39,428 bases of DNA from a virus. The translations under genes were made by a program, and so were the position numbers. Location: IMG/VR virus record IMGVR_UViG_3300035158_000906, positions 1 through 39,428 of that record, one strand, 5' to 3'. Each line of letters starts with the position of its first letter. Position 1 is the first letter of the stretch. Shown here piece by piece: positions 10,253 through 35,643 of this stretch. The notes under the pieces were generated by a model. It did no database searches. It saw only the letters and a program-made list of their open reading frames with translations, and was not told the origin of the DNA.

Positions 10253-12031
10253 ATGGATAATGTGACACACGGTGATGTGGGAAAGGTCATAGACCACCAA
10301 GATGGTGCCATGTCTCTCATAGCAGAGGTAACCCCCACCAAAAGGCAACAGGTAGACAACGGCCTGAATGAAGTGGTGCAGGCCACGGGCACCGGAAGCG
10401 TACGGCAGATTGAGGGGCTTGGGGGGAGCATAGAACAAACCGCCGAACGAGCAGTTGCCAACACTATGTTCCGCAGGGACTCTCAGCTCAACCCCGCAAG
10501 GAAATCAAACACTGAGCCCTTCATGGATTTGCCAATGAGCGGGCGGGACTCCCACGATGTCTACCGCAAACAGATTGGGCTGGCGCAGGAGCTTTACTTC
10601 TGGGAGCCCATCATTGCCACAGTCATTGATATTATGGTGGAGTTTTCCATAGCTGGCATGCACCACCAAAGTAACCACCCTCGTGTCAAGAAGTGGTTTG
10701 ATGATTGGGCAGAAGAGGTGAGGCTTGAGCAGGTCATAAAGTGGGCATTGCAAGACTACTACCTGTCGGGGGCTGCTCGTATCATGCGACAGGATAACGA
10801 GCAGGGCGTCCCAGTGGGCTTCAACGTTATCAACCCAGCAGTGGTCAGAATAGAGGGCTCCCTAAACACCGCCCTTACAGGGGAGGCCCCCAAGTACGCT
10901 ATCAAAAAGAGAGACCTTACCTCCGACCAGTACCTGGATAGAAATAGCGACATACAGTGGCCCAGCTGGGTGCGGGAAAAGGAGGATATGATAATCATAC
11001 CCAGCGACCGCATGTTCTCCATTGAACGCAAGAAGATGCCATACCAACGCTATCCCACCCCACTGGTCATGCGAGTAGCCCGAGCAATCATGTTCAAGCG
11101 CAAGCTGGAGCTTATGGACTGGTCAACAGCAGACAATATGATTAACAGTCTGGTCACCGTGACTATTGGCAATGACGAATACCCAGCTACCAAGAAGCAG
11201 ATACAACAGCTCAAGAAGGTATTCCAAACTGGCGCTAAGTCCATGATTGTCTATTGGGACCACACCCTCAATGTGCAGTTTCATAGGCCAGAGGCCGACC
11301 AGGTGCTGGGCTCTGAGAAGTACGAGCGTGTTATTCAAGACATCATGACAGGCCTTGGCGTCAGCCAATCTCTCGTGTCAGGTGGCGGAGGCGGCAGCGG
11401 CGCTTACGCCAGCCAATGGATTGCAGTCCTAGCCCTAATCGAGCGGCTTGAGTGGGGCAGGCAAGATATCATACAGGCGTTTAGGCCCATATACCGCGAC
11501 ATAATGAGGTCTCGGGGCGAGTACTCCGTGGACCCGCCAGAGCTGAAGTTCGACCGCATGCGGCTCAGGCAAGAGGACCGCGTGAAGATGATTCTGATGG
11601 CCATGAGAGACCGTGGCCTGCTCTCGGCACGCACCGCTCTGGAGGAAGCTGGCTATGACGCAGAGACCGAAATGGAAAATCAAAAGGATGAAATGGAGCT
11701 TATGGAGGAGGGAATCTTCACCCCGATAGGTAATACTCCTATAAAGGGAGAGCCTGGAAGACCCAAGGGTAGGCCTGGCAATTACCCCGACATGAGACAA
11801 CCTAACGACTCTCAGCCAGACCAGCAATCAGATGGAAAAGAAAGAATGGTCATGGTTGATGGGGATATTGTCATACCTACTAACGACGACATCGTTGAGG
11901 CGGAGACAGAAAGCGAGATAGAGAAGCTAGACCGCGAGATAGAACGAGCGCAGCAGGCTGCTGAAGAGTTAGAGCAACGCAAGCAACAGTTGCTCACCCA
12001 GTCGCCTGACGATTACGAGGGAGATGATTAA
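10253..12031 (+). CDS. Portal protein (592 aa)
   Basis: The dodecameric ring through which DNA enters and leaves the capsid. Identification rests on its place after the large terminase, its length, and portal-like segments: an N-terminal QIGLAQELYFWEPIIATVIDIMVEF helix region and IPSDRMFSIERKKMPYQRYPTPLV. These are followed by helices (AIMFKRKLELMDWSTADNMINS) and the GLGVSQSLVSGGGGGSG loop typical of portals before the crown/stem helices. The C-terminal 100 residues are polar and charged, ending in a coiled-coil-like stretch (IEKLDREIERAQQAAEELEQ), perhaps a crown tail. It starts three bases after terL. Confidence 0.88.
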   Translation: MDNVTHGDVGKVIDHQDGAMSLIAEVTPTKRQQVDNGLNEVVQATGTGSVRQIEGLGGSIEQTAERAVANTMFRRDSQLNPARKSNTEPFMDLPMSGRDSHDVYRKQIGLAQELYFWEPIIATVIDIMVEFSIAGMHHQSNHPRVKKWFDDWAEEVRLEQVIKWALQDYYLSGAARIMRQDNEQGVPVGFNVINPAVVRIEGSLNTALTGEAPKYAIKKRDLTSDQYLDRNSDIQWPSWVREKEDMIIIPSDRMFSIERKKMPYQRYPTPLVMRVARAIMFKRKLELMDWSTADNMINSLVTVTIGNDEYPATKKQIQQLKKVFQTGAKSMIVYWDHTLNVQFHRPEADQVLGSEKYERVIQDIMTGLGVSQSLVSGGGGGSGAYASQWIAVLALIERLEWGRQDIIQAFRPIYRDIMRSRGEYSVDPPELKFDRMRLRQEDRVKMILMAMRDRGLLSARTALEEAGYDAETEMENQKDEMELMEEGIFTPIGNTPIKGEPGRPKGRPGNYPDMRQPNDSQPDQQSDGKERMVMVDGDIVIPTNDDIVEAETESEIEKLDREIERAQQAAEELEQRKQQLLTQSPDDYEGDD

Positions 12032-14974: not shown

Positions 14975-15991
14975 ATGCCTGGACAAATCGATTTGCGAGA
15001 GTTCGCTCGTCAGATTCTCGAACAGACTGAGGGCGAAGACAACCTGGTAACAACCAAGAGCGGTCGTCGCGCTGAGATGCTCGGCGACATGCCACGGGAT
15101 GAGAAGATTGAGGCGACAAAGGCCTCTATCGAGTCTCCCGAAGCGTTCGGTGAGTGGGCGCAAGCCCTAAGCCTTCCTTTGGAGGTTATGCTCGACCGCG
15201 AGAGCACGGTGCGCAATATCTATCAGGTCATTCCACTAGACCACAATAGCCCGCCCACCTTCCCGGTGCTTGGCACCGAGGAGCAGCAGGGCTCGGCCTG
15301 GGTAGTCCCGGGGCTTATGCTTCAGCCCACGCAGCGCATCGTGGCCGATACGGTCACCGTGAACACCTTCGAGGTCACCAGCTCTATTGAGTGGAAGCGA
15401 CAGTTCCAGCGGGACGGTCGTTTTGACGTGGCCGAGAAGTGCACGAGCCTCATGAAGCAGTGGGTGCTCATCACCGAGGAGGAAAAGGGTTGGGAACTCC
15501 TGAAGACTGCCAGCACCGCGATGAACTCTGCTCAGTCCATCTCTGATGGCGAGCCGGGTGCAAGCTACCTCTCCAAGGAGCTTATCAACCTACTTGACGT
15601 GCGTATGTCACGTCACCCCTCCAATATCAGGCAGCAGCGCGGTCGCCGCTTGACCAACCTGTATGCCAACAACGAGCGCCTCGCCGATATCCGGGAGTGG
15701 ACGACGACCACCATCGACCCCGTGACCCAGCGCGAAATCTTCCAGAATGCCGGTCTGAATGGCATCTGGGATATCGCACTTGAGGAGTACTACTTCCTTG
15801 AGAACACTGAGGTTTACGGGTTCGACCTCCGCGACCAGAGCAACCTCGGCGTCATGCCTATTGCCGAGTCGCTCATCACGGAGCCACTGTACGCCTCCTT
15901 GGATAGGTGGCGAGTGGGCGTCAAGTGCCTTGAAGAGATTGGCTTCGCCGTCCTGGACGCGAGGTCCATCATCAAGGGCACCATCAGCTAA
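14975..15991 (+). CDS. Major capsid protein (338 aa)
   Basis: Predicted HK97-fold shell protein, chosen for its size, its place after scaffold and decoration genes, and its very strong GAGGAGGTG ribosome site. The N-terminal 75 residues are charged and helical. The middle has TVNTFEVTSSIEWKRQFQRDGRFDV, as in the shell-forming core with an extended loop. A long helix (VAEKCTSLMKQWVLITEEEKGWELLKTAS) resembles the spine helix. The C-terminal part RWRVGVKCLEEIGFAVLDARSIIKGTI is typical of capsid P-domain endings. A perfect hairpin follows the gene. No maturation cleavage site can be named. Confidence 0.8.
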   Translation: MPGQIDLREFARQILEQTEGEDNLVTTKSGRRAEMLGDMPRDEKIEATKASIESPEAFGEWAQALSLPLEVMLDRESTVRNIYQVIPLDHNSPPTFPVLGTEEQQGSAWVVPGLMLQPTQRIVADTVTVNTFEVTSSIEWKRQFQRDGRFDVAEKCTSLMKQWVLITEEEKGWELLKTASTAMNSAQSISDGEPGASYLSKELINLLDVRMSRHPSNIRQQRGRRLTNLYANNERLADIREWTTTTIDPVTQREIFQNAGLNGIWDIALEEYYFLENTEVYGFDLRDQSNLGVMPIAESLITEPLYASLDRWRVGVKCLEEIGFAVLDARSIIKGTIS

Positions 15992-18926: not shown

Positions 18927-19406
18927 ATGCAAAAGACTAACCTAATCTACCTCTCCGTCTGGCAGGCTATACGGGATGGCCTTGACGCCGTTGGGTTTGA
19001 TGAAGAGCTGGTGCCAATCACAGATACTTACCCAGAGAGCAGCGTCAAGCTGCCGTTGATAGTGTTGGGCACAGCGCCATTTGATGAGTTTGGCGTAGAG
19101 CTCGGCAGCATCAGGCAGGGGCTCACGATACGCTTTGACATTGAAATATTGGCCCGTTCAGATGCTGGGGCCAGAGACCTATTTGACATCATCAGAGAAT
19201 CTCTGAGGCCCATATCTACTCATGGGGACATACCCATATACGACTACAATGAGGGATTTCCCGAAGACGGGATTTCACCCTCCAAGGTCGGGGTGATCCA
19301 GACTGAGGATATAACGGGCGAAGAAGTATACGATGAAGAGGTCGGGGAAATTGCCCGACATCAATGGAGCGTTCAAGTTGTAGCGCTGGCCATCTTGTGG
19401 TCATAA
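18927..19406 (+). CDS. Putative tail terminator protein (159 aa)
   Basis: A 159-residue alpha/beta protein: an N-terminal helix (YLSVWQAIRDGLDAVGF), strand SVKLPLIVLGTAPFDEFG, strand GLTIRFDIEILARSD, helix ARDLFDIIRESLRPI, and a last strand HQWSVQVVALAILW. This is the order in tail terminators of the lambda gpU type, which cap the tail tube. GGAGG lies nine bases before the ATG at 18927. It stands between the gp10-like gene and the tail tube, the standard place. Confidence 0.72.
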   Translation: MQKTNLIYLSVWQAIRDGLDAVGFDEELVPITDTYPESSVKLPLIVLGTAPFDEFGVELGSIRQGLTIRFDIEILARSDAGARDLFDIIRESLRPISTHGDIPIYDYNEGFPEDGISPSKVGVIQTEDITGEEVYDEEVGEIARHQWSVQVVALAILWS

Positions 19407-19434: not shown

Positions 19435-20493
19435 ATGGGAGAAGACCAGTTCTTTGGAGGCGACGAGTCAGACGACATCACTAGGGAGCCCAACGGCGAT
19501 GCCCCACAAGCTGCCGAAGAGGGTGGCGTCGGGGCGCGAGCCGACCTACAGAATGTCGCAGCTAATGTGCCTTACTACAAGGTACAGCTGAGCGGTGCCC
19601 GCACGGCGGATGATGAGACGCTTGAATTCGGCGGCGCACAAACCGCTAACTTCACCTACCGAGCCACGCAAGATGAGGTCAAGGCGTTGGGCACTACCAC
19701 GCTATGGGTACAGTACGACGTGCCTACCGTGGACGCCACCATCACGCAGAACCTTGGCTTTGGCGACCCTGCTCCACTTCTGTTGGGGCAAGACTTCGCT
19801 GGCGCTGTGGCCGCACAGACCACTCCGGACGCTGAATTCGACTTGCCACAATACGAGTTGCAGGTTGATGCAGGCGGTGCTGTCATGAATCTACCACGCG
19901 CATACTTCTCTGGCGTAGACATCACTGCCAGAGTCGGAGCGTTTGCGACAGCAGACTGGCGTTTCGAGGGGTTTGCTGGCTCACTAACCAACACCGCTCT
20001 ATCGCCATTCACCTGGGACCAGCCGCAAGTCACATCACAGGCTGCTTTCGTTCGTCACGGTGGAGTCCATGCTGATATGGCGGGTCTTACGCTCCGTGTT
20101 CAGTCCGTGAGAATCACGATGAACATGGGCAGAGAGCCGCTGAAGCAGTTGGGGACCTATGAGCCGTTCGTGCTCATACCAACGTTCCCCATCACTGTGA
20201 ACGCCACAGTTGAGGCGTTCCCCGTGCAGGACTCAGCTGAGGTGTCTTACACCACTACGGGTAACGTGGACCCAGCCGTGTATGGCAGGCCCACCGAAGC
20301 CGGTGACGCAGACATCATCATGCGCACCAGCGAGGGCCATTTCGGCAGCAACGCTGCGCACGATAAGTGCACATTCAGGCTGCCGGATTGTCAGATTATC
20401 GACGTAAGCCAGGCTGGCAACGTAGGCGGTAGTGCCACTATCACCTACACGCTCAGGGCTTACGACCTGCAGTACAAGAGCGAGACTGCATAA
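19435..20493 (+). CDS. Major tail (tube) protein (352 aa)
   Basis: A beta-rich protein with an AAAGGAGGTAA ribosome site. Its N-terminal 45 residues are acidic and disordered-looking. It follows the terminator gene and precedes the chaperone pair, where the tail tube gene normally lies. Segments such as LTLRVQSVRITMNMGREPLKQLGTYEPF and FPITVNATVEAFPV resemble tube proteins that bind neighbours through a beta hairpin and a helix. At 352 residues it is somewhat longer than many tubes, so it may carry an extra domain on the tail surface. No sheath gene is near it. Confidence 0.75.
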   Translation: MGEDQFFGGDESDDITREPNGDAPQAAEEGGVGARADLQNVAANVPYYKVQLSGARTADDETLEFGGAQTANFTYRATQDEVKALGTTTLWVQYDVPTVDATITQNLGFGDPAPLLLGQDFAGAVAAQTTPDAEFDLPQYELQVDAGGAVMNLPRAYFSGVDITARVGAFATADWRFEGFAGSLTNTALSPFTWDQPQVTSQAAFVRHGGVHADMAGLTLRVQSVRITMNMGREPLKQLGTYEPFVLIPTFPITVNATVEAFPVQDSAEVSYTTTGNVDPAVYGRPTEAGDADIIMRTSEGHFGSNAAHDKCTFRLPDCQIIDVSQAGNVGGSATITYTLRAYDLQYKSETA

Positions 20494-20927: not shown

Positions 20928-21668
20928 ATGGCTGAGGACACAGTAGTGCAGGAAGAGAACGAGGAACTCACAGAGGAACAGCGACGCGAGGCCTTGAATC
21001 AGATTATGCAAGGTCTGAAGACAATGGATACGGAGCGATGGGGAACTGTCGTATTCCGTCATCCCACAATTGACGAAAGCGCAAAGGCAGACATGGAGTA
21101 CTCCAAGAACTTCCAAGAGCTCGTTGAGGAAGGCGTCCGTACCAACGCACAATGGCGCAAGTGGATGCGGGAGCAGGGTGTATTCACAAAGGAGGACGAG
21201 GCGCGTGTGCGCACCCTACAACAGAAGCTCCAGGCTCTTTCTACCGCACTGGCAGACACAGAAGAGGGTCAGGCCAGCGAGGCTATAGAAGAGCAGATGG
21301 AAGAAATCACAGAAGAGCTCCAGGACCTATACGAAGAGCAGCAGGCATTCCTGCAACACTCTGCCGAGTCTAAGGCGGAAGAGGGTAGGCTCATGCAGCT
21401 TATGCTCTGCTGCGTAGAGGACGAAGAGGGCAACCCCGTGTGGGAGGACAAGGCTGCTCTGCTGGGTGAACCCAACGATGACGAGATGGTAGAGGTCACC
21501 TCTGGCCTGATGCAGTTTCTAAGGGGCATCCCTTTAGAGTTATCAGAAGCCTTGCAAGAGGGGACGGCGAGTCCGGAAGTGATTGGAGAAGCCGATGGCA
21601 AATCGCCAACCGAACCGGAACAGCCGTCTTCCGAGGGCCAGTCTCCGAATGGGACCGAAACCAAGTAG
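20928..21668 (+). CDS. Tail assembly chaperone, short form (246 aa, gpG-like)
   Basis: The zero-frame product of a chaperone gene pair that coats the tape measure protein during tail assembly. It is strongly acidic and helical (NEELTEEQRREALNQIMQGLKTMD, QAFLQHSAESKAEEGRLMQLMLCC). I start it at ATG 20928, with GGGACGGAG upstream, not at any codon inside the previous gene. A slippery heptamer lies at 21530-21536. After it the zero frame becomes low-complexity (EGTASPEVIGEADGKSPTEP) and stops at 21668, while the -1 frame carries conserved-looking sequence. Confidence 0.8.
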   Translation: MAEDTVVQEENEELTEEQRREALNQIMQGLKTMDTERWGTVVFRHPTIDESAKADMEYSKNFQELVEEGVRTNAQWRKWMREQGVFTKEDEARVRTLQQKLQALSTALADTEEGQASEAIEEQMEEITEELQDLYEEQQAFLQHSAESKAEEGRLMQLMLCCVEDEEGNPVWEDKAALLGEPNDDEMVEVTSGLMQFLRGIPLELSEALQEGTASPEVIGEADGKSPTEPEQPSSEGQSPNGTETK

Positions 21669-21964
21669 CCCTCTGCATCTGGAGCTCGTTCTACGATAAT
21701 GTGTTTGAGCACCCAGAGAGGCCACCTCAACACACTATCGAAAACGACTCGGCTCTGGATATATGGGTAGAAGAACAACAACGCAAAGACAGAGAGCGTC
21801 GAGCAGAATATATTGCCAGCCAGGACGGGAGCAGTCATGGCAAGCAAGGGAAGCTCGACGGTAGAGAAGCAACGCAAGCAGACTTTGAAGGAGGCAAGAC
21901 TATCGAGTTGAGTAACCCGAATCCTCAGAAGTTCGTTATTAGTGAGGACCCGGACCTAATCTAA
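20928..21964 (+). CDS. Tail assembly chaperone, frameshifted long form (345 aa, gpGT-like)
   Basis: Made if ribosomes slip back one base at CCCTTTA (21530-21536). The -1 frame is open from 21482 to the stop at 21962-21964. After the slip it encodes a 142-residue extension with an ending typical of T-type chaperone domains: GPVSEWDRNQVALCIW, SSFYDNVFEHPERPP, and ENDSALDIWVEEQQRKDRER. In lambda and many phages the G-T form is needed for tail assembly in a fixed ratio to the G form. The tape measure gene follows after 77 bases. The product joins residues 1-203 to the extension. Confidence 0.82.
21530..21536 (+). promoter_or_regulatory. -1 programmed frameshift site CCCTTTA
   Basis: The heptamer fits X XXY YYZ and is in the right register: zero-frame codons are CCT (21531-21533) and TTA (21534-21536), slipping to CCC and TTT. 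It lies inside the region where both frames are open (21482-21668), which supports use. Confidence 0.8.
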
Positions 21965-22041: not shown

Positions 22042-25000
22042 ATGCCACAAGCAGGCGGACACACACCGTACCAACATGTCATCAACCTCAGGGTTGATGC
22101 AAGTAAGGCCATACAACAGCTCAACGCGCTTAAGGGCGAAGCGGAGACTGCTGAAACCTCCATCAAGGAATCGATGGAGAGCATCCGCTCCGCCCTTTCG
22201 CTTGGTGGTCAAAAGGGTCAAAATGCCAAGGGGCTCTTTGCTAACATAGAGTCCCAAGCTGGCGCACTTGGCAAGGCGTTACAGACCTCCGTGTCAAGCT
22301 CCGTCAGAGAGGGCTTGACTACGGGCACCAGAGAGGGTCTCTCCAACATGGAGCGGACCATCACCACCAGCGTGCAGACTGCCGTCGAAACAGGCGTCAG
22401 GCAGGCCCTCAGGAACGTTGAGGGTATGATAAGTGAGACCATTCAGTCTGGTGCCCAGGCAACAACGCGCCCCGCCGCAGCTCGCAGAGAAACGGCTGGC
22501 GGCGGCGCTCCCTCTATGGTCGTATCTCCCACACCACAGCCAGCATCCTCACCACCTCCAGAACCACAAAAGCCACGCTATGATACTGCCAGCCCTGGTC
22601 AGGAGATTAGGGGTGGTGGTGTCATACGTCAGGTTGTAAAGACACAGGGCTCCCCAAGCGATGAACTGGTCAACTGGACCAGAGAACAGGGCTACCAGTT
22701 GCCCCCAGGCCACACTGTGCGTAAGGTGGCCGAGGTAGCCAGTCGTGGTGATGTCATAGACGTTGGCGGCACCAGGCATCAAGTGGTTGGCCTCCCCGAA
22801 GGGCAGTCCATGTCCGAGCAACAGAGAAGGGCTGCTGAACGGGCTGGTTATAGAACTCCCCCAGGCACCACTATAAGAGCCATGGAAGCCGCAAGGCAGC
22901 GCAGGGCTATGGCAGCCGCTAGGCAGCAGAGAGCACGAAGCATGAGCGGTAGTCAGCCAGACTTATTCCATGGAGATACCTCCATAGACCCAAGATACGA
23001 TAACCCTATATTTGAGAATAGCCCAATAGCTCGCCCAACGGATGTCTACCCAATCATGAGAGGTGGCAAGAGTATGCTTGCCATCTCACGAGCTAGCACA
23101 CAAACGGGAGCAGTGAACCAGGGGGTTGGGCCTAAGGTCCAGGTAAACACCTATGACGCAAATGTCAAAGAGGCTGCGCGTAGAGTAGCAGCAGAGCGAG
23201 TGGCACAAGAACGTTATGAGGAAGGATTGCGCGAGTACCAAAGGCAGCAGGCTGAGTATGAAGTAGCCAAAAAAGAATGGTCTGGAAACTTGTGGGGAGA
23301 TACAGAAGAGCCAAGGCCACCGACGCCCCCAACATTCCAAGAGGTATCCCCCAGCGAAGTAAATAACTCAGAAGTTAGTAAGGTATACTCGGAATTGAGG
23401 GGAGAAGTCGCACCGCCTTCTGAGCTCAACAAAAGCATAACTGCCGCCCATGCTTCTCGTGCAGCCAGGGTACGCTCTGGGGAGCTAGACAAGTGGTCGG
23501 TGTCACTGGTCAAAGAAGACGCTAGAGAGGCAATGCAAGGCTATACCGGAGCTAGTCATGTAAAGTTTCACCCAGATGTAGATGATGGCAGGAATGTCCC
23601 TAATAGTGAGACGGCTGAGCGCTTTATGGCTCATCTCAACCAGTTGCCTGGCTCAAAGACAGCGCAGTACAACGATGTTTTTCAAGCTACACTAGCCGAA
23701 GAGGACGTAGCTGGCGTGTTGCTTGATACAGTGCTCAGGAAAGAGATGGGCTCAAAGACACATCAGATATTCGACCAGCCTAATGTTCCAATGTACGGCA
23801 AGGGGCGTAGCACACAAGGAACAGCTGATTGGCTCATAAGAAACTTTATGGGCAACAAGAGCTTCTTCCTAGAAGACGCAGGTCCAGCTCACCAACCAGC
23901 TGGCATTATGGGACTAGCGCCAGACAAAACAGCAAAAGAAGGCCCTGGGCAGTACCCAGGGATTGTAACGCCGACAGATGCAACTGTGTGGCAAATGCTA
24001 CAAACAGTCATGGGCGACATAACGCAGATGTCTGGTGTGATGGACCACGAGCTTGCCTTGTCTCAAATGTTCCCAGAGCAAGGGTTTGGGCGGCCCGTAT
24101 CAGCTATAAGTGGTAGGTTGGGCCTGGAGGGCTTCACAGAAGCAATCTCCAGCACTGAGATGCTGACGCCTGAAAACTTCGAGCAAGTCAAGAGAAACAT
24201 GTTGCTTAACCACATCACCGCCACCATGACAGGCGGTACTCGCCCTGAGTATGGCTTAGGGCTAAGCCCAGGTGTTGCGCACAGAGCAAGGAATGTCACT
24301 GAGCTTGAGGGCCGGGGTTGGACCGAGCCTATTGGTGGTAATAAGAGGCAAAGAACCAGGCCAATGTACATTGGCAATGTAGCTGAAACTATAGAAAACC
24401 TCATGAGAAGAGGTGCTCCCTATAGTGTGGAGCACCATGCTGGCAATTTGCTTAATTTCCTGCAAGAAATGGATGCCACCCGCATACCTGGCACTGGAAT
24501 GCGCGAAACAGTTGGCATCGAAAATGTGCCAGTTAGCAAAGAGCTATTTACTAACTTAGCAAGGATGCAGGCAAATCAAGTAATGGGCAGTGGTTCGCAG
24601 CCATTCTCATTTGACTATCTAATTAGCGAAGCAGCTAGGCGTCAGGGTAACCCTAAACTTGCAGAAGACTATTACCACCCAGACATCCATGGCATGCCAG
24701 AAAAAGACTGGATGCGCTCTGGGCGAATGGTTGTACCAGCGGGCAGGGGAATGCAATCAACCTCCGCTATATCCCGTGGAATAAAAGACTTATCTGGCAG
24801 CGATGCATTTCACCTCGGCTCGGGTGTTATGGGCAAAATCCCATTTGGCATGCGAGGGGACCAGGGCCTCATAAATGAACTTGGCGTAGGTGTGGGCGAC
24901 ATTACAATGGGCACCACCCTTTACTCGGGCACGGGAGGCATTGGGTCGGTGGGGGCCTATGCTATGGACCCAGATACTGCGGCACAAGCGCAGGCAGCTA

Positions 25001-28000
25001 TGCAAGAAATACTTGGCCCAGCTGCTCAGATGAGTCGCGTCCTCCCCGAGGGTATGATGGAACTCAATATACCAGGGGAGTATGGTGAGGATAGCACTCG
25101 AATCAACGCGGCCACCCGAATGGAAGCTGTCAGGCAGGCGCTGCCGCTCTTCCAGGGTCAGCCATTTATCAACCAAGGCATAGGTACATGGTACGAGGGA
25201 GAAGAGCTGCCTTGGACCGAGCCCGTGACCACTATGAGGGGCATGCCTCGCGGACATGAAGGTGTGCAAGGCGGTATCGGCTTTATACAAGCCTTGCAAG
25301 AAAGATTTGCACAGCAAGCTACACTCATAGGACTTGGGGGCAAGAGGCAACCTCAAGCTTGGACCACGACAGGTGAATTCAAGGACGTAATGGGCAGTGA
25401 TGCGCAATCTGCCTACCAGCGTTACATGCGCACGCTGCCAGATGCCACCGCACAACAGCTCCTGCCACCAACCTACAGGTCAGACGAATTTGGGCGTGGC
25501 ATGGAGGGCAGCTCAGCTGCAATGCAGGCCTTCATGAAGAACATGGGGGTCAACTACAACCCTGATATATACAGCGAGCTCATGCCAGATGCTGGTCGGC
25601 AGGAGAAGAAATCACTAGAGCCCTGGATGCAAAGTGGGGTCCCCGGGGAATACCCACGAATGGATTGGCTGCACAACGCAGCACGCACCATACCTCAAGA
25701 ATGGTGGCCCCACCTTGGCTCCCTACACGTTATGGGGGCAAAGGATGCGGGGCACGCTAACAGATTAAACATAGCAGAGACCATATCCACCGGTCAGGGC
25801 GTTCTCTCAACTGGGCCAGTGAGCCGTCACGTATTTATGGGTCCCAAGTCGGCTAACAGCCCCAGCGATACGCTATCCACTTTGTGGCACGAAATGGGCC
25901 ACGTTATGGACTTCGAGGCGCAGGCTGGCAATGTGCCATTTGACCCAGAGCAGCAGGCCATGTGGGACCGCTACAGAGAGGTATTCCAGAAGGCCAAAAG
26001 CTCCAGGGCAGGTTTTGGTGCTTATGCGAGAGATTATGCTTGGGATTTCAAGCATGAAGATGTATCAACCATAATGGAGGGACTTGTCACATCTCCCAAC
26101 GTTAGAGCAGAGCGCGGCTTCATCAGCCGCCCAGCCCTGCTTGCCAAAGCACAAGAGAATCCACTTCTCAGACAGAGAATAGGCCTTCTATCTGGCGCAT
26201 TCAATCTACCACGTGGTGTGGCAGCATTTGAAGATGAGGCCCGCAGGGGCATGGGGAGCAGTCCAAGACAGTCGCCGTTCAATATAGGCCAAGAGCATAT
26301 ACAGAACCTCTTGCAGTTCCCTTATGTTGGCGGTCTACATGGCGAAAAGTCTATGAGCCAAAGCGACCTCAAGCACCTGAGAGAAGCGCAAGAGGTTGGA
26401 AGAGAAAGGCTTAGGCTTCGACAGGAAAGTGGTCGCCACGTACGGTTCGGGGAATTCCCTTACGTAGGGACCTCTCAGGCCGTCATCCCATTCAGGCCCG
26501 GTGCTTCGGGGTACGAATCCACCCTTAACCTCGCCCGAGAGCAGTTGCAGCGCATACAACAAGAGTCTGGCGTCAACCTCGACCTCCCCGAAGATGCTGG
26601 GGCGCAACAGGTGGCAAGAGCATTTGAGCAACTCACCCCGGGCCAAGACGTGGGAACAGGCACATTCAAGCAGGCCATGACTCAAGCGTATGGCATGCCA
26701 GAAGAGGTTTTCGGGAAGATATTTGACCCAGAGTGGAGACACTCCCGCCGCAGAATCGGTGAGCTTGGTGTCAAAGACATCTCCCACTGGCACCCGCAGG
26801 CTACTACGGCAAGTGGCAGGCCAGCAGCTGCACATAGTATATCTGACCTTGAGTTGGCTCTTGATGAGTTCGCCCAGACCGGCAGTTTCTACGGAGCGGA
26901 AAGCTTCGAGGCTGGCGGCATAGAGGGCATGTACCGCCTGACACCCCCCAAGCCCGAGAGTGACAGAGACAGCGAGCTCTATCGCCGCAAGGCGCGGGAT
27001 ATACACAAGAGAATACAGGCCGTAAGACAGGCTGCACAAGACCCAGAGACTGACTTCACAATGGCGGATGTGGAGCGCTCTGGCATGGTCTACCGCCTCA
27101 TGCAAAACGCTGGTTGGGGCGTAGAGCCCATGAAGATGGCCCCGCAGATGATGGGGCCAATGGCAGCGGTAAAGACCGCTGGCACGTCGCCTGGGCCGAC
27201 CGAAACCACAGGTAGAGCCCCCACCTCCTATGCCTACATCAATGAGATGAAACTGGGGCAAAGCACCAAGCAGCTTGCCGATGCTGATGAGCAACTCGTG
27301 CCAGTCATGCAGCGAGTAAGCAATGCTATGGCACGGCAGACCACAGCAGTGCTTGAGAAGTACGAGGCTATGCAGAAGCTCCTCACATCTGTGAGGGAGC
27401 TGTCACAACACGAGGGCACACTTGCCAAGTCGTTGACAGGTGCTGCCACTGTTACTGAGGGAACGCACGCAATCCCTCTCAAGGAATCGCTGACGGGTGA
27501 CCTGGGTCGCCTATTCAGACCCCAGCAGCTTGACAGACTAAAGCAAGAATTTGGCAAGAGCATGGGGCTGGAGGGCACAGCCCTTGACAAAGAGTGGAGC
27601 AGCCTGGAGAGCAGCTTCAAGCAGCGCTTCGGAAGGCGCTGGCGCGGTCCTCTCATGGAGCAAGGCGCAGAGGCCGTCACCCCACAAGCCCTTAGGGAAG
27701 GGATGATGGGCGTATTCACAGAAGCAATGGGCTCTCGCGGGGGGATGGGCAGAGCACAGGCTGAACAGCTCATTGCCAATGTCCTTGCCGGTAGAGGGGC
27801 TGGAGGCGGAGGAGGCGGCACTGCTAGCCGAGGCAGTGGCGGTGGCGGAAGAGCTAGCGTGCCACAAGGACAACAAGAGTATGTCGTTAGAACGGGACAA
27901 GAATATCGCGCCGCACTGCAAGATATCAGCCAGAATATGGGCGCTGCCTCAGACCGCATGCGTCGTTGGATTCAGGAAACTGGCCTACCAGAAAGCGCGG

Positions 28001-31000
28001 TCAGGGGGCGCATAGGGACTGAGTACGGCATCACGATGCTCGGCCCCAACGACGAGGTGATGGCACAGCAGCGAGTGCCCACCCAATGGCAGGGCAGAAG
28101 AAGTGGCTTCCAGGTCAATGCAGGCGACATGGCCGAACAGGCCACGGGCATGCAGCGACTTGGCCTCACGGTTGAGAAGGTTGGTATGTGGGGTGTGGCA
28201 ACAGGTGCTGTGTATGGCTTCCTGAGAGCTATCAGAGAAGCCATGTCAACCATGACCCAGTTCGAAGATAAGATGGCAGGGGCGAAAGTCCTTATGCCAC
28301 TTACCACGAACTGGAAGAAACTAGCAGAATTCGCTGGTGGCACAGCTAGAGAATACGGAACCTCAATCATGACGGTTATGGATGCTACCCGTCAATGGAT
28401 GAGGCAGTACAAGGACCTCAACCAAGTGCTGGATATGACACGAGAAGCAATCAAGCTATCTCGTGTAGACAACATAGACCTGGCCAAGGCCAATAAGTAT
28501 CTTGAATCAACCATCAACGAGTTCAACCTATCCGCGACAAGCGCACAGCGTATCGTGGACAGCTGGACCAATGTGACGAACAATGCCCAGGTTGCTATGA
28601 CCGACCTGGCTGGCGGTATCAGCCGAGCTGGTGCTGCCGCTAAGATTGCCGGTGTTGACTTTGATGAGCTCAATGGCATGATAGCGGCAGGCGTCAGGGC
28701 CACGGGTGAAACAGGCCAGCAAATAGGGCAGATGCTGAAGACTGTGTTCGGTAAGATGTACACAGACAAGGCAGTCAAGACCCTGCAGGACCTCGGGATA
28801 GCCGTGGGCGAGATGCGCGAGGGAGTCACACAACTGCGCCCAGCTGGAGATATACTCGAAGAGCTAGCGAATAAGTGGAACAGCCTATCAAGAGCACAGC
28901 AGCAGCAGGCAGCCATGTCAATGGCTGGTGGTGTAAGGCAGTGGTCCCGTCTGGCCGCTATGCTCGCTGAGTACCAAACAGCTGTTGATGCCACGGCTGC
29001 CTCTCAGAATGCATTTGGCACTGCCGCCCGAGAGGTTAGCATCAGAATGGACACGGTGACGGGTGCCCTGTCCAAGCTCAAGGGTGCCTGGAGCAGACTC
29101 ATAGGTGACCTGGGCTTCAGGCAGAATGTGCTCAAGCCCATCAGGGAAGCCATTGACCTCACCACCGAGCTAGTGGACGCATTCTCCGCACTCCCCGATT
29201 CCATCAAGGCGGCCACAGTCATTGTGGGGGCGTTGGCTGCTAAGATTGCTACGCTCAACCTCATGTTCCGAGCATTCGGGATGGGCAACATCGTCGATGT
29301 CGGAGGCTTGTGGTATGGCGGCATCAGCGCGGCTGGCATGGGTCCTGAGCCAGTAGCCACACCTGGTTCTGGCTCTGCTGTGCCGCTGCTAGGCGGTGGG
29401 GGAGCTGCTGCAGCTGGCGGCAGGGGCATGGCTGCCACCTCAGCCACAGGACAGGCACTTGCCGTAGCAGGTGGCGAAGTCGGCGGCAGCATGATTGCAC
29501 GCCGAATGGGGTCTACGGGCAGCAGGGTTGCTGGTGAGGTAACAGAAGAGGCAGTAGAGGGTGGCTTGTGGAGTAGAATGGGCCGCTCATTCCGCTACGG
29601 GTATTCCCCAAAGACAGGAACCACACTGTTTGGGAGCCTGAGAAGCAAGGGCGTAGCTGGCGTGATGGATGATGTGGCTACCAGTGGCAGGCAGTTCGCC
29701 GCTGGCATGAGCTCCATTGTGGGTAAGCTCGCAAGGTTCGCGAAGATTCTGGGCGTGCTCATTATTGCTGGGCTAGCTGTCTCGAAGGGCTACGAAGCCA
29801 TCAGCGACAGAATAAAGCGCATGGGCATGAGCGAGTCAGAGCTCAAGCGTGCTGATATCCAAGAGGGGTTGGAAGAAGGCGCTGTGTACCTTGAGGCCAT
29901 GGGCCAACTGAATGAGCTCAGGTCTGTAGAAAACCCATCACTGCAGCAGTTGGCTCAAATAGAGAGGTTAGAAGAGCAAGCGCAGGAAGCACAGAAGCCA
30001 AACCTGCCTGGTGGAATCAACACAGTAGCTGGCGCGAACAGCAGAATGTCGCAGCTGCTTATAGACCAATACCTTGAGCAGCTGCCAGACATGAATCTGC
30101 AAGATATCATAGAATTCAACCCCGAAGTCATAAATGCTCCTCGGGGCGTAGGGCAGATTGGTGGCACCGAGTGGGCTCAGCTTGTAGAGCGCGGCATAAT
30201 CGGCACTCAAGAGCGCCTCTCTGGCGAGGACCAGCGAGCGCAACGGGAGTATATGATACGAGAGTATCTTGCCCAGTACGCCAGCGGAGATGCCGAGTTG
30301 GATGCCCCCTGGAGAAGGCCAGGTATTTCACTTGATGAAGTTATCAAGCAAGCTACAGGTAGGGACCTACTAAGAGACCGCCAAGAGATACAAGGGGCAC
30401 TGGCGCAAGGGGTGCCAGAGGGCGGGGAGGTCCCCGTGGTGCTCGGTCAGTACCAGGGCGAAGCAACCGCTGCATTCCTGCGCCCTACGGATGAAGGATT
30501 CGAGACGCAAGTACCTGGGATGGAAGAGCCAATACAGGCCCAAACCCTGCAAGGGCTAGCAGCTAAGATGGAGGAACTAGATGTATCCATCGAGGCTCTC
30601 ATCCACCCATCGAGAGAGGTAGAGCAGGCGTTCCTCAACACATCCAGCAACCTCGATGTGCTCAACAAAGAGCTGCAAAATATAAGCAAATCCCTGTCAT
30701 TGATTCGCAACGCTGTAGATTTGACAGCTCGCATATCAGGGCCAACTGGAGTATCTGGGGCGCTTAACAGAGCACAGATGGGCGCTATGGGCAGGATGAT
30801 AGAGCCCACGGAGCGCATGCGGGGGCAGGCTTGGAACAGAGAGCGTTACGTCATAGAAGAAGTCTTCCCTAATGTTAGAGAAGAAATACAAACTGCCATA
30901 AACAACGTGATGAAGGAAGGGCAGTTTGAAAGCGAGGAGGCAGTTGTTCAGTACGCCCGCAAGCAACGGGTGTCGGGCGGGGAGGTCGGCGAGGACCTTG

Positions 31001-34000
31001 GCGAGATAGAAGATGTCGTGAAGGCCCTTGAGAAGCAAGAGAAGGCCGTGCAGTCCCTGCAGAAGGCCCAAATGGACCGCCTCAAGGCCGAGCAGCAGCT
31101 GCTTGAGATTGAGGAGCAGCTACGCAAGACTCAAGACCAAAGCCTTGAGTACTTCAATGTGTGGGACAGGCTAACCGGTTCAGTGGACAGCGCCCGCGAG
31201 GCTGCATGGGGCTACTTCAATGTCATCAAGTCAATTAGAGAGCAGCAAGCTCAGCTAAGCACACAAGCAAGCCTGGGCGCAGGTCACAGTGCCTACATAA
31301 AATCAATAGAAGAAAGAATGTCCACTAGGAATCAATACGCCGCAAGTGTGGGTGCCGCTCAAATCAATGCTGAGGCCGCTCAAGGCCTAGCACTCGGCGG
31401 CGTGCCATGGGTAGAAGCTGCAAGGCCAGGCTTCTCTCCAGCACCAGCAATCAGGGAGCTCAATGCCCAGATGCAGCAGGGCATGGATGTAGGTGGAGCC
31501 ACCACCAGCGATGTCGGGCAAGCTCTAATAATCACAACCAGAATATTCGACAACGCCGTGGCTAGATTCGAACAGGCGGTCGGTAGTTTTTCGGGTGGTA
31601 GTGGAGGGTGGGACTACACAGGGGGACTAGGGGCACCAGGTAGACTCTCTAGTGTCCCAGCTAGAGCTACCGGTGGAATGATATCTCAGTCCAGTGGCGA
31701 GGACATAACCGCACAGTCGCCGCGCGACAGCGTGCTCATTCGCGCACAGCCTGGTGAGGCTATCCTTAACAAGAAGGCTGTGCAGGCCATAGGCCACCGG
31801 GGTGTTGATGAGCTCAATAAGCTCCCTGGCTATCAGGGCGGTGGTATAATTGGAGACCCTGTTACACAAAGACTGTGGTCTCAAGTCCAAGAGCCCTCCA
31901 TTGTAGAAAGAATATCTGCCTGGATGAGTGGCGGCAAATCTATAGGGTCAATAGACCCAAGGGTTACAAGAGAGCTAGAAGCTGCCGGTATAGAGCCAAG
32001 AACTTTCTTGGAGAGACTGCGTAACCCATCCCCACAAAGTGATGAGATTATTGAGTTTTTGCACAGGGGGAGCCTGGGGCGACCAGAACACTTAAACTTC
32101 CCTGAAGCCACCTCAGAGCAACTTGCACAACTGCGTCGCACCATATACAAAGATGAATTGTCGCGTGTCGGAGGCAATACATCATTCCGCCAAGCATCGC
32201 GAGCCTCTGATGCTGTTGTGGAAAGCATACACCCGAGAACGGGTGGCTCTAATCGCTTGCGTACAGCTATTGAGCGCGGACAAGAAGCCCTCGAACAAGA
32301 GTGGGCACGTGTGCGTGCCTCCGAAGCAGAGGTAGGCACCAAGATAGAAGTCGGCAGAGCCAGAGCTGCCCGGGTAGAGGCTGGCAGAAGCGCATTGCGA
32401 CAGCCATTATCCGAAATAGGGGAAGACCTATCAAGGGGTAGAGTGAGCGACCCCCTTGGTGGCATGGCACCCAGACAAAGGGCATTGCCATTCAACAGAG
32501 TGTCTGCAGAAGAGGGGCAAAGGATATACGAGATTGCCAGAAGACAGGCTGCGGAAGATGGAGCCACAGAAGGTCAGAGAGCTATCGCCGATGCAGTTGA
32601 AGAGTGGAGAAATGCGCATCCGGAAGGGGCCACAGGCACCCCTGCTGATGATGTTGCTGAATCGGCGGCAAGAACTGCCAGCAGAGAGGCTGCTGGTGAA
32701 GCGAGCTCATCTGGTGGTAGGCTAGCCTCTGCCTGGCAAGGGACCAAACGAAGAACTGGCGCAACGATGCGGTGGCTAGCAGAGCCAATGACACAAGGCA
32801 TGGGGAGACTAGCAGCTACAGAAGGGTCGAGTTGGGGCTCTAGCGCACTCAGGGGAATAGGCCGCAGTGCTAGCAGGGCAGAAATCTTTAGCATACTAGC
32901 TGGTGGCTACTTCGGCTACACAGGCGCTAGAGACAAAGGCATCGGTGCAGAAATGCGCGAAGGCGCTATTGAGGCTGGTACACTAGGGCTCTCAAATGTA
33001 GCTGATTGGTTTGGCGGTGGCGCACTTGGTTGGGGGCTTGCTGGCGCTGGGGCATTGGGCGCATTGTTGTTAGCCCCCGAATTCGCCATTCCACTTCTAT
33101 TGGGAGCTGGGCTATACGGCGTTGGACGCATGGCCGGTGCTGGAGTGTACTCATGGCAACAACACCTGGGCGCATGGCGTCAAGGCGAGACTTCGCTATT
33201 CAGCTCAGAAGGTTGGTTTAGTGAGGGTGAACTAGGTAGTATTATAGAAAGAGAGCAGCTTGAACGCCGTGCTGGGGTAAGCCTCGAAGGTCTACAGAAG
33301 TTCGCTCAGGGCGGCGAGGTCAAACCCAGCAGTGGCGTATACGATGCTACACAAACACAGGACAAAGTGCTCACCGCGCTCAGCCCCGGTGAGTATGTAG
33401 TCAATAGAGAAGCATCAGAAAAGATTGGAAGAGCTGGGCTGGATGCCATCAACAGAGGTGATATGGAGACGGCCTTCAACGTTGCGCTGAAGCGACAAGG
33501 TGGAGGCCCGATAGATGAAAGGTATAGAGACAGAATGCACGAAGGCGGCTTCTACTTCAGGCACCCCTGGGAAGAGGGCGGAGAGTCTGGCGAATATGTA
33601 CGTATGAAGCCAAATGACCCAAGGATGATGCTGCACGACCCAAGGCAAATGGGTCGTTATACAGAAAGAACAGATAGCGGAGACTACCGCTTTTCCGTTG
33701 AACAACTCAATCGCCAACATCATAATGTAGGCATAGGAGGGTTGAGTTGGTGGAATCGGCTAATCAGGACAAAGGACCAAGAAAGAGCGTTGCTCAGGAA
33801 TAGGTGGGTAGAAGCCACGCGCGACCTGGGGCAAACTCCAATACATCCATCTAATATACCAGGTTCTGGATGGGAATCCACAGAAAACGACCCATTCGTA
33901 GAAGAGCATAGTGGATTTGACGCTGGGCGACAAGCGCCTCCAAGGCGCAGGAATATGCTCGCACAGATACAGGCTCAGGAACTTGAGCGAGCTATGGTCG

Positions 34001-35643
34001 CTGCTCTAACGGAATGGGACAGAGCAAGGCCGCAAGCAAGATTAGACCAATTCAAAGACACTCTAAACCTTACAGTAGAAAGAATGAACCAGACATTCTC
34101 AGGCCTCCAACTGCCTGGCATAAATGTTAGTCAAAATCTAGGCACAGGAGAGCATGCATTCACTGGGCTCGGTAGCGCACAGCGCACAGCTACCATAAAT
34201 AGAATGCTTGTTCGCTCCGGTGCTGAAGGGCTTGCTAAGGGGCCAGCTGAAGTGAGGGCAGAGCAAGCCCAGCAACTCAGGAGCAACTACCTGCAAGGAC
34301 TAGAAAAGGCAGCTCAACAAGCTAACGAGTGGGCTACATCCACCGACGAGAGAACATCTAGGTATGGCAGGGCTTGGTCAAACGCCATAGCCAACCTTGA
34401 TAAATTTGGCACTGGAAGATGGAAAGAAGTAGTCGAGCAAATGCCCCAAGAAATAAGGGGGGCAGTAAATAACTTTGCTCAGACTATGAGGCGCAATCAA
34501 GAAATTGCAAATCAAGTACAGGCCAGAGCAGAGGTAGCAGAGACCTACGAGAAAGCTGGGGCACAGGCACGTGAGCTCGTAGGCGGAGTGTCGTCCACAG
34601 GCCAAAGGCAGGTTGGCAGATTCCAGGCAGAGCATGTAGCCAACCGCCTGATGGGCCAACTTGCGCCAACAACTGTTGAGAGCCCATTTGAGATGATGAG
34701 CAAGCAAAGCGAGCAAGCCGCAGGAGCTTTGCGCGAAATCATACAGAACATAGCTATGGAAGCACAACAAGAAGGGCGAGCAGGGCAACAGGCTCGCATG
34801 GGGCTTAGGGCATTTGGCGCTGCTGGTCGCGGCGACACCGAGGCATTCCAGCAGACTATGGCTGCCCTTGACCCCGAGAAGCAGCGTAGCGTTCAGCAGG
34901 CACTGCAGCTAAGGCGATTGGCGCAGCGTAAGCCACCAAGAGAAGGTGAAATTGAAGAATCAATAATCAGCGGAGCCTACGGAGGCCCTGGTCAGCAGTG
35001 GCAGAGCTATATGGAAGGCGCATTCATGACTATGATGATGAGTGGTGCCTCCACTATCATTAGCCCGCTGACATCTATGATAGACCAGCCCTCCATGAGC
35101 AGGGCTCACAGGGCTACCGACCCAAGGCTTATACAACAACATGCTACCCCAGCTGGGCGTAACGTATATGGCTACCCGCAGGGTGTCACCTACAGAGAGG
35201 GCGGTCAACTGGGCGGCGCGCCAGAAGTTGGCTACGGCCCCACCAGAAGAGGTGATAGGGGAGAGCAAGAACCAATAAGTCAATCGCCGATATCGCCCGA
35301 GACAGAAGTGCCCGACTTCGTGTCTGCGCCTGAAAAAGTGCCTACCGAAGAGTGGATGAGAGCCGTTGATAGCATAAACGCTAGGCCAGGCTCTGACCAA
35401 TACATGTTGTTGTTAGATGAGCTGAGAGAAAGTAAAGAAATACAGTACGAGATGATGCAAGAGACCAGAATGCACCGTGAGGCCTATGAGAAGGGCGTTG
35501 GCGGAAGTTCAAGGATTCAAATAGACACCAAGGTAAGTGTAGACAAGGATGCTCATGCGGAAACTCAAATAGAAGGCGCGGACAACCCGCAGGCAGCACA
35601 AAGAAATTCTGACAGAGAAAACACGCCCACAAGTGAGGAATAA
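22042..35643 (+). CDS. Giant tape measure protein with embedded zincin-like motif (4533 aa)
   Basis: Sets tail length and probably enters the cell with the DNA. Residues 15-130 are coiled-coil-like. At 1283-1287 is HEMGH, with the later Glu in EDVSTIME (about 1339-1346) a possible third zinc ligand, as in metallopeptidases. Residues about 2040-2410 look like the conserved tape-measure region (TMTQFEDKMAGAKV, ISRAGAAAKIAGVDFDEL, GQQIGQMLKTVFGKM). Membrane-like segments lie near 2390-2413, 2566-2580 and 3663-3695. Two copies of a C-terminal tape-measure motif occur, SVLIRAQPGEAILN (from 3230) and KVLTALSPGEYVVN (from 3775). GAGGTGA precedes the ATG. Using about 1.5 angstrom per residue it predicts a tail near 680 nm, less if domains do not extend. 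Confidence 0.95.
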   Translation: MPQAGGHTPYQHVINLRVDASKAIQQLNALKGEAETAETSIKESMESIRSALSLGGQKGQNAKGLFANIESQAGALGKALQTSVSSSVREGLTTGTREGLSNMERTITTSVQTAVETGVRQALRNVEGMISETIQSGAQATTRPAAARRETAGGGAPSMVVSPTPQPASSPPPEPQKPRYDTASPGQEIRGGGVIRQVVKTQGSPSDELVNWTREQGYQLPPGHTVRKVAEVASRGDVIDVGGTRHQVVGLPEGQSMSEQQRRAAERAGYRTPPGTTIRAMEAARQRRAMAAARQQRARSMSGSQPDLFHGDTSIDPRYDNPIFENSPIARPTDVYPIMRGGKSMLAISRASTQTGAVNQGVGPKVQVNTYDANVKEAARRVAAERVAQERYEEGLREYQRQQAEYEVAKKEWSGNLWGDTEEPRPPTPPTFQEVSPSEVNNSEVSKVYSELRGEVAPPSELNKSITAAHASRAARVRSGELDKWSVSLVKEDAREAMQGYTGASHVKFHPDVDDGRNVPNSETAERFMAHLNQLPGSKTAQYNDVFQATLAEEDVAGVLLDTVLRKEMGSKTHQIFDQPNVPMYGKGRSTQGTADWLIRNFMGNKSFFLEDAGPAHQPAGIMGLAPDKTAKEGPGQYPGIVTPTDATVWQMLQTVMGDITQMSGVMDHELALSQMFPEQGFGRPVSAISGRLGLEGFTEAISSTEMLTPENFEQVKRNMLLNHITATMTGGTRPEYGLGLSPGVAHRARNVTELEGRGWTEPIGGNKRQRTRPMYIGNVAETIENLMRRGAPYSVEHHAGNLLNFLQEMDATRIPGTGMRETVGIENVPVSKELFTNLARMQANQVMGSGSQPFSFDYLISEAARRQGNPKLAEDYYHPDIHGMPEKDWMRSGRMVVPAGRGMQSTSAISRGIKDLSGSDAFHLGSGVMGKIPFGMRGDQGLINELGVGVGDITMGTTLYSGTGGIGSVGAYAMDPDTAAQAQAAMQEILGPAAQMSRVLPEGMMELNIPGEYGEDSTRINAATRMEAVRQALPLFQGQPFINQGIGTWYEGEELPWTEPVTTMRGMPRGHEGVQGGIGFIQALQERFAQQATLIGLGGKRQPQAWTTTGEFKDVMGSDAQSAYQRYMRTLPDATAQQLLPPTYRSDEFGRGMEGSSAAMQAFMKNMGVNYNPDIYSELMPDAGRQEKKSLEPWMQSGVPGEYPRMDWLHNAARTIPQEWWPHLGSLHVMGAKDAGHANRLNIAETISTGQGVLSTGPVSRHVFMGPKSANSPSDTLSTLWHEMGHVMDFEAQAGNVPFDPEQQAMWDRYREVFQKAKSSRAGFGAYARDYAWDFKHEDVSTIMEGLVTSPNVRAERGFISRPALLAKAQENPLLRQRIGLLSGAFNLPRGVAAFEDEARRGMGSSPRQSPFNIGQEHIQNLLQFPYVGGLHGEKSMSQSDLKHLREAQEVGRERLRLRQESGRHVRFGEFPYVGTSQAVIPFRPGASGYESTLNLAREQLQRIQQESGVNLDLPEDAGAQQVARAFEQLTPGQDVGTGTFKQAMTQAYGMPEEVFGKIFDPEWRHSRRRIGELGVKDISHWHPQATTASGRPAAAHSISDLELALDEFAQTGSFYGAESFEAGGIEGMYRLTPPKPESDRDSELYRRKARDIHKRIQAVRQAAQDPETDFTMADVERSGMVYRLMQNAGWGVEPMKMAPQMMGPMAAVKTAGTSPGPTETTGRAPTSYAYINEMKLGQSTKQLADADEQLVPVMQRVSNAMARQTTAVLEKYEAMQKLLTSVRELSQHEGTLAKSLTGAATVTEGTHAIPLKESLTGDLGRLFRPQQLDRLKQEFGKSMGLEGTALDKEWSSLESSFKQRFGRRWRGPLMEQGAEAVTPQALREGMMGVFTEAMGSRGGMGRAQAEQLIANVLAGRGAGGGGGGTASRGSGGGGRASVPQGQQEYVVRTGQEYRAALQDISQNMGAASDRMRRWIQETGLPESAVRGRIGTEYGITMLGPNDEVMAQQRVPTQWQGRRSGFQVNAGDMAEQATGMQRLGLTVEKVGMWGVATGAVYGFLRAIREAMSTMTQFEDKMAGAKVLMPLTTNWKKLAEFAGGTAREYGTSIMTVMDATRQWMRQYKDLNQVLDMTREAIKLSRVDNIDLAKANKYLESTINEFNLSATSAQRIVDSWTNVTNNAQVAMTDLAGGISRAGAAAKIAGVDFDELNGMIAAGVRATGETGQQIGQMLKTVFGKMYTDKAVKTLQDLGIAVGEMREGVTQLRPAGDILEELANKWNSLSRAQQQQAAMSMAGGVRQWSRLAAMLAEYQTAVDATAASQNAFGTAAREVSIRMDTVTGALSKLKGAWSRLIGDLGFRQNVLKPIREAIDLTTELVDAFSALPDSIKAATVIVGALAAKIATLNLMFRAFGMGNIVDVGGLWYGGISAAGMGPEPVATPGSGSAVPLLGGGGAAAAGGRGMAATSATGQALAVAGGEVGGSMIARRMGSTGSRVAGEVTEEAVEGGLWSRMGRSFRYGYSPKTGTTLFGSLRSKGVAGVMDDVATSGRQFAAGMSSIVGKLARFAKILGVLIIAGLAVSKGYEAISDRIKRMGMSESELKRADIQEGLEEGAVYLEAMGQLNELRSVENPSLQQLAQIERLEEQAQEAQKPNLPGGINTVAGANSRMSQLLIDQYLEQLPDMNLQDIIEFNPEVINAPRGVGQIGGTEWAQLVERGIIGTQERLSGEDQRAQREYMIREYLAQYASGDAELDAPWRRPGISLDEVIKQATGRDLLRDRQEIQGALAQGVPEGGEVPVVLGQYQGEATAAFLRPTDEGFETQVPGMEEPIQAQTLQGLAAKMEELDVSIEALIHPSREVEQAFLNTSSNLDVLNKELQNISKSLSLIRNAVDLTARISGPTGVSGALNRAQMGAMGRMIEPTERMRGQAWNRERYVIEEVFPNVREEIQTAINNVMKEGQFESEEAVVQYARKQRVSGGEVGEDLGEIEDVVKALEKQEKAVQSLQKAQMDRLKAEQQLLEIEEQLRKTQDQSLEYFNVWDRLTGSVDSAREAAWGYFNVIKSIREQQAQLSTQASLGAGHSAYIKSIEERMSTRNQYAASVGAAQINAEAAQGLALGGVPWVEAARPGFSPAPAIRELNAQMQQGMDVGGATTSDVGQALIITTRIFDNAVARFEQAVGSFSGGSGGWDYTGGLGAPGRLSSVPARATGGMISQSSGEDITAQSPRDSVLIRAQPGEAILNKKAVQAIGHRGVDELNKLPGYQGGGIIGDPVTQRLWSQVQEPSIVERISAWMSGGKSIGSIDPRVTRELEAAGIEPRTFLERLRNPSPQSDEIIEFLHRGSLGRPEHLNFPEATSEQLAQLRRTIYKDELSRVGGNTSFRQASRASDAVVESIHPRTGGSNRLRTAIERGQEALEQEWARVRASEAEVGTKIEVGRARAARVEAGRSALRQPLSEIGEDLSRGRVSDPLGGMAPRQRALPFNRVSAEEGQRIYEIARRQAAEDGATEGQRAIADAVEEWRNAHPEGATGTPADDVAESAARTASREAAGEASSSGGRLASAWQGTKRRTGATMRWLAEPMTQGMGRLAATEGSSWGSSALRGIGRSASRAEIFSILAGGYFGYTGARDKGIGAEMREGAIEAGTLGLSNVADWFGGGALGWGLAGAGALGALLLAPEFAIPLLLGAGLYGVGRMAGAGVYSWQQHLGAWRQGETSLFSSEGWFSEGELGSIIEREQLERRAGVSLEGLQKFAQGGEVKPSSGVYDATQTQDKVLTALSPGEYVVNREASEKIGRAGLDAINRGDMETAFNVALKRQGGGPIDERYRDRMHEGGFYFRHPWEEGGESGEYVRMKPNDPRMMLHDPRQMGRYTERTDSGDYRFSVEQLNRQHHNVGIGGLSWWNRLIRTKDQERALLRNRWVEATRDLGQTPIHPSNIPGSGWESTENDPFVEEHSGFDAGRQAPPRRRNMLAQIQAQELERAMVAALTEWDRARPQARLDQFKDTLNLTVERMNQTFSGLQLPGINVSQNLGTGEHAFTGLGSAQRTATINRMLVRSGAEGLAKGPAEVRAEQAQQLRSNYLQGLEKAAQQANEWATSTDERTSRYGRAWSNAIANLDKFGTGRWKEVVEQMPQEIRGAVNNFAQTMRRNQEIANQVQARAEVAETYEKAGAQARELVGGVSSTGQRQVGRFQAEHVANRLMGQLAPTTVESPFEMMSKQSEQAAGALREIIQNIAMEAQQEGRAGQQARMGLRAFGAAGRGDTEAFQQTMAALDPEKQRSVQQALQLRRLAQRKPPREGEIEESIISGAYGGPGQQWQSYMEGAFMTMMMSGASTIISPLTSMIDQPSMSRAHRATDPRLIQQHATPAGRNVYGYPQGVTYREGGQLGGAPEVGYGPTRRGDRGEQEPISQSPISPETEVPDFVSAPEKVPTEEWMRAVDSINARPGSDQYMLLLDELRESKEIQYEMMQETRMHREAYEKGVGGSSRIQIDTKVSVDKDAHAETQIEGADNPQAAQRNSDRENTPTSEE

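Follow-up and report, generated by a model that had tools for sequence, protein, structure and literature searches.

A 4,533-residue TP901-type tape measure protein in a metagenomic virus fragment and the long tail that it predicts

The window analyzed here, a 39,428-base virus fragment listed as linear in IMG/VR, carries a 13.6-kb gene whose product is, by its profile matches, a TP901-type phage tape measure protein of 4,533 residues. The kind of protein is familiar; its size is unusual, rare yet not unique. The reading that we favor, with reasonable though far from full confidence, is that this protein would specify a non-contractile tail of about 690 nm (617–755 nm), with a large segment inserted ahead of its core both counting toward that length and being injected. 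Under this proposal, the virus would be a tailed phage, its tail most likely being non-contractile, and the tape measure protein would be threaded through the tail lumen in a mostly extended and helical form. Chaperones would coat the protein, one of these being produced through the −1 frameshift immediately upstream, and the tube would polymerize around it until its end, giving a tail of ~690 nm. Between a normal N-terminus and the TP901 core, ~1,900 residues would form an inserted segment carried in the tail, adding to tail length and passing into the cell together with the DNA. Should the ruler rule apply, the tail of this phage would rank among the longest of any virus; if the whole proposal is true, this would be the second case, after the Thermus phage P23-45, of a very large N-terminal passenger on a tape measure, and such a passenger could be used to test tape measures as general carriers of proteins into cells.

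The preliminary description of this DNA had reported a frame of 4,533 residues and 13.6 kb, which was borne out by the open frame, the lack of stops, and codon usage. The gene is as follows:

22042–35643, + strand: tape measure protein gene, 4,533 aa (open frame and profile matches)

The frame is initiated by ATG and contains no internal stop codon, and GAGAGG, a ribosome-binding-like sequence, lies 9 bases 5' of the start. Codon log-odds, for which six other genes of the window served as the training set, preferred this frame in 43 of 45 segments of 300 bases (the remaining two being near ties with an antisense frame), and G+C was highest at codon position 1 in nearly all 900-base segments. 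Because codon usage supports the frame nearly throughout, a frameshift artifact is unlikely, and the long frame is confirmed as genuine. A mistaken fusion of two tape measure genes was likewise rejected, since the core occurs once and no internal self-match of the protein was found. Although this metagenomic fragment is known from its assembled sequence, it is very improbable that the 13.6-kb frame arose in assembly or sequencing, given codon usage that is consistent from end to end without stops, one core free of internal duplication, plausible neighboring genes joined at both ends, and a homolog of 4,639 residues in another IMG/VR record.

Its identity as a tape measure protein, also put forward in the preliminary description, was upheld by TIGR01760 and PF10145 matches above cut-offs and by PHROG matches. 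TIGR01760 (tape_meas_TP901) matches residues 2058–2406 over profile positions 2–348 of 349 (E 2.7e-32; 112.1 bits, curated cut-off 28.8), PF10145 matches residues 2101–2296 (E 5.5e-24; 85.6 bits, cut-off 33.2), and more than 10 PHROG tape-measure families match residues ~1994–2535. Two tape measure traits, namely hydrophobic segments and a C-terminal PGE.V.N motif, are both present, and the gene sits between the tail chaperone and a probable tail-tip gene, neighbors whose own family matches are weak or none. The protein can be divided as follows:

22042–22491, + strand: putative tape-measure-like N-terminus (INLRVDASKAIQQLNALKGE...), residues 1–150, low in proline (composition)
22492–28131, + strand: extra region ahead of the core, residues ~151–2030, proline plus glycine 17.4%, no detectable relatives (composition)
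28213–29259, + strand: TP901 core, residues 2058–2406 (TIGR01760)
29212–29268, + strand: hydrophobic, transmembrane-like segment, residues 2391–2409 (hydropathy)
29716–29772, + strand: hydrophobic, transmembrane-like segment, residues 2559–2577 (hydropathy)
31660–31845, + strand: C-terminal motif GG..D.V...PGE.ILN..A...G...L, copy 1, residues 3207–3268
33034–33123, + strand: hydrophobic segments, residues 3665–3694 (hydropathy)
33295–33480, + strand: C-terminal motif GG..D.V...PGE.ILN..A...G...L, copy 2, residues 3752–3813

Residues 1–150 gave weak profile matches only. The motif shared by the two copies also occurs toward the C-terminus in other tape measures, and copy 2 is 42–46% identical to tape measures of the Mycobacterium phage LeBron type.

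The surrounding genes run in the order small terminase, intein-split large terminase, portal, protease/scaffold-like, decoration, HK97-fold capsid, connector-type genes, tube, chaperone, tape measure, and tail-tip, with several of these names assigned by position. The features that bear on the tail and head are listed below:

7283–10249, + strand: terminase large subunit with an intein (profile matches)
10253–12031, + strand: portal protein (profile match)
14975–15991, + strand: HK97-fold major capsid protein, related to Bacillus phage G gp27 (sequence matches)
18927–19406, + strand: probable tail terminator (position)
19435–20493, + strand: probable tail tube protein, 352 aa (PF18906 Phage_tube_2, E 0.0013, under the curated cut-off)
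20928–21668, + strand: tail assembly chaperone, zero-frame product (weak PHROG match; position before the tape measure)
21530–21536, + strand: candidate −1 slippery heptamer C CCT TTA, in phase
21537–21964, + strand: extension of the chaperone in the −1 frame, giving a predicted shifted product of ~345 aa
35649–39428, + strand: probable tail-tip protein, at least 1,260 aa, running off the record (position)

CCCTTTA is the sole slippery heptamer in the chaperone frame and has the right phase for a −1 shift into the frame ending at 21964; a chaperone pair with a −1 slippery site is the usual layout ahead of a tape measure. The capsid protein matches PDB 6wkk, and its sole phage relative by tblastn is the distant gp27 of the giant Bacillus phage G (26% identity). 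For the probable tail-tip gene, database and IMG/VR searches gave no relative; its product has zinc-ribbon-like CxxC pairs. No match to a sheath gene was found from the terminase to the tape measure, in a record that is a fragment and where divergent genes may escape, and the failure to recognize a sheath points, short of proof, to a non-contractile tail. Elsewhere in the window, the terminase intein, located at the Walker A region (residues ~62–497), has a LAGLIDADG-type endonuclease domain, a PIN domain is fused to a PhoH-like ATPase at 2255–3595 (Pfam PIN_4, PhoH), and two N6/N4-type DNA methylase genes (PF01555) occupy 1–606 and 5096–5971, one being cut by the record start.

The TP901 core shares 25–30% identity with its counterparts in the Lactococcus 949 group, the Bacillus phages vB_BcoS-136, FADO, and Slash, and others. 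Scanning IMG/VR and bacterial genomes with an alignment of cores yielded 75 loci, and the median length of their tape measure frames, some of them incomplete at the ends, is 2,229 residues. The longest of these homologs, in IMGVR_UViG_3300035204_001665 (G001, loci L057/L090), has 4,639 residues when its contig is followed further and is thus slightly longer than the protein of the window. It resembles the present protein in its TP901 core, its paired C-terminal motifs, and a weak similarity between the tube proteins (the probable tube protein of the window matches L090 weakly); however, its core lies at the N-terminus (PF10145 at residues 125–312; L090, 2507–16426), and the additional residues come after it. 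Single-protein scans of IMG/VR with the core, capsid, terminase, N-terminal region, and tail-tip gene as queries yielded no close relative; such scans depend on short exact peptide matches and reach close relatives only.

Tail length was calibrated on nine phages with published tails (TP901-1, Abouo, Emery, phiCbK, Colossus, Tsamsa, 949, phiL47, and Hotorobo), with pairs of tape measure and tail lengths drawn from the literature (PMC5099701, PMC4168068, PMC3556154, PMC3903500, PMC3888941, PMC4982279). The linear fit has a slope of 0.1513 nm per residue, an intercept of 0.4 nm, and a residual SD of 22.5 nm; the value of 1.5 angstrom per residue assumed in the preliminary description therefore agrees with nine measured phages. 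Because these phages give 0.151 nm per residue, a tail of ~686 nm is predicted for 4,533 residues (95% prediction interval 617–755 nm), although a protein of this length is outside the range of the fit. With P23-45 included at 800 nm, which is a lower bound, the prediction becomes 704 nm (640–767 nm). The predicted 686 nm is longer than all nine calibration tails, but not longer than those of the Thermus phages P23-45 and P74-26, which exceed 800 nm; the preliminary description had credited P74-26 with about 5000 residues, and its record indeed holds 5,006, next to 5,002 for P23-45 (PMC10770324). A tail of ~690 nm is inferred here from the gene sequence, and the earlier expectation of several hundred nanometers would follow on any reading, with a predicted length of at least ~380 nm. 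One contrary datum is vB_BcoS-136, for which a tail of 145 nm is listed beside a tape measure protein of 2,792 residues; this entry is possibly mislabeled, because the listed head of 59 nm looks too small for 160 kb.

The ranking among the longest tails known holds only if the ~1,400–1,900 residues ahead of the core count as ruler. The core starts ~2,000 residues into the protein, compared with ~0–608 residues in nearly all of the 75 homologs (the offset is 1,306 in L075), leaving a surplus of ~1,400–1,900 residues relative to nearly all of them. Two published cases suggest that enzyme inserts in tape measures do count. In TM4, a 114-residue deletion that included an enzyme motif cost the tail 20 nm, the amount expected from the ruler rule (PMC1796659). 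The 5,002-residue tape measure of P23-45 includes an RNA polymerase at residues 327–1124 (PMC10770324), and the tail exceeds 800 nm (PMC9022992); were its first 1,124 residues left out, 2.06 angstrom per residue would be required, more than an alpha helix provides. The P23-45 insert thus seems to be counted, because the remaining residues are too few for more than 800 nm at helix spacing. The phiCbK tape measure contains a CHAP domain, yet its length still falls on the line (PMC3556154). By analogy with TM4 and P23-45, all 4,533 residues would likely act as ruler.

The main competing explanation, which we consider unlikely but worth serious attention, is that the N-terminal 1,400–1,900 residues do not contribute to the ruler, being either folded into domains or removed by cleavage, giving a tail of ~405–475 nm; without 1,400–1,850 residues (2,683–3,133 left), the fit gives 406–474 nm. 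Some tape measures, such as lambda gpH, are cleaved before the tail is completed. The core offset far beyond that of the homologs, the composition rich in proline and glycine, the zinc protease signature described below, and the lack of relatives of the N-terminal region by any search run all speak for this explanation. It is opposed by TM4 and P23-45, in which enzyme segments within the tape measure do count, and by the dimensions of the tube, since a domain several hundred residues long would, once folded, hardly fit into a lumen of ~4 nm (PMC9022992). The two readings differ sharply in outcome, at ~690 nm if the insert counts and ~405–475 nm if it does not, and we continue to favor the former.

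The extra region itself has few recognizable traits. A tblastn search of residues 1–1989 against 50,697 phage records returned no match, and Pfam and PHROG scans of pieces of the N-terminal region returned nothing convincing. Proline plus glycine make up 17.4% of residues 150–2000, compared with 11.4% in the corresponding part of P74-26 and 7–9% in the tape measures of Firmicute phages; therefore, much of the stretch may be non-helical. AlphaFold2 models of single sequences without an alignment (residues 1097–1500 and 1784–2933) had mean pLDDT values of 37 and 39, too low to inform. One motif stands out:

25879–25908, + strand: zinc protease signature TLWHEMGHVM, residues 1280–1289 (extended HExxH pattern)

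The pattern matched by TLWHEMGHVM is PROSITE PS00142. A match to the signature appeared in 3 of 3000 shuffles, and a zinc-motif DNA pattern search found WHEMGHVI in two other, otherwise unrelated, viral proteins. No peptidase family among the Pfam and PHROG profiles matched the N-terminal region, and TLWHEMGHVM is accordingly described as a zinc protease signature only, without a family or fold match.

An RNA polymerase at this end of the protein was considered because P23-45 carries such a fusion at the same end in a protein of similar total size (PMC10770324). We give almost no credence to a virion RNA polymerase here, and the candidate was dropped: DxDxD is absent from all 4,533 residues, whereas P74-26 has DFDGD at 779, and a search of solved structures gave no match at E up to 1. 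The missing catalytic motif largely refutes this assignment. A more tentative idea, to which we lend some weight but short of belief, is that the ~1,900 residues constitute a new kind of passenger, perhaps with a zinc protease, that would be carried unfolded in the tail and delivered with the DNA, taking the slot of the RNA polymerase of P23-45.

Several known systems can be set beside the present one. P23-45 and P74-26 (gp96/gp95) have tape measures of ~5,000 residues, a similar gene order between the terminase and the tape measure, a segment close to the N-terminus that is not tape, and an annotated metallopeptidase domain; however, tblastn shows no similarity between their tape measures and the present protein, which lacks their DxDxD RNA polymerase motif and has a higher proline plus glycine content. 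Kinship with P74-26 on the basis of gene order is unsupported by tblastn beyond a marginal terminase match (E 0.012). The Lactococcus 949 group (949, phiL47, WRP3, and P1048) has a homologous TP901 core (27–29% identity) and long non-contractile tails of 480–500 nm, but its tape measures comprise 3,275–3,334 residues, with the core ~600 residues from the N-terminus and without a large insert, and its other structural genes have no detectable relation to those of the present phage. The Bacillus phage Tsamsa also combines a large tape measure (3,123 aa) with a 440-nm tail (PMC3903500), although the protein is shorter and lacks the N-terminal insert; one of the 75 loci (L034), the core of which is 31% identical to the present core, is probably Tsamsa, judging from a tape measure frame of equal length. 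Finally, the Gordonia phages Hotorobo, Monty, and Woes, likened here by gene and tail length, have long tape measure genes (9,969–9,984 bp), which nevertheless encode shorter proteins than that of the window, and tails of ~540 nm (PMC4982279).
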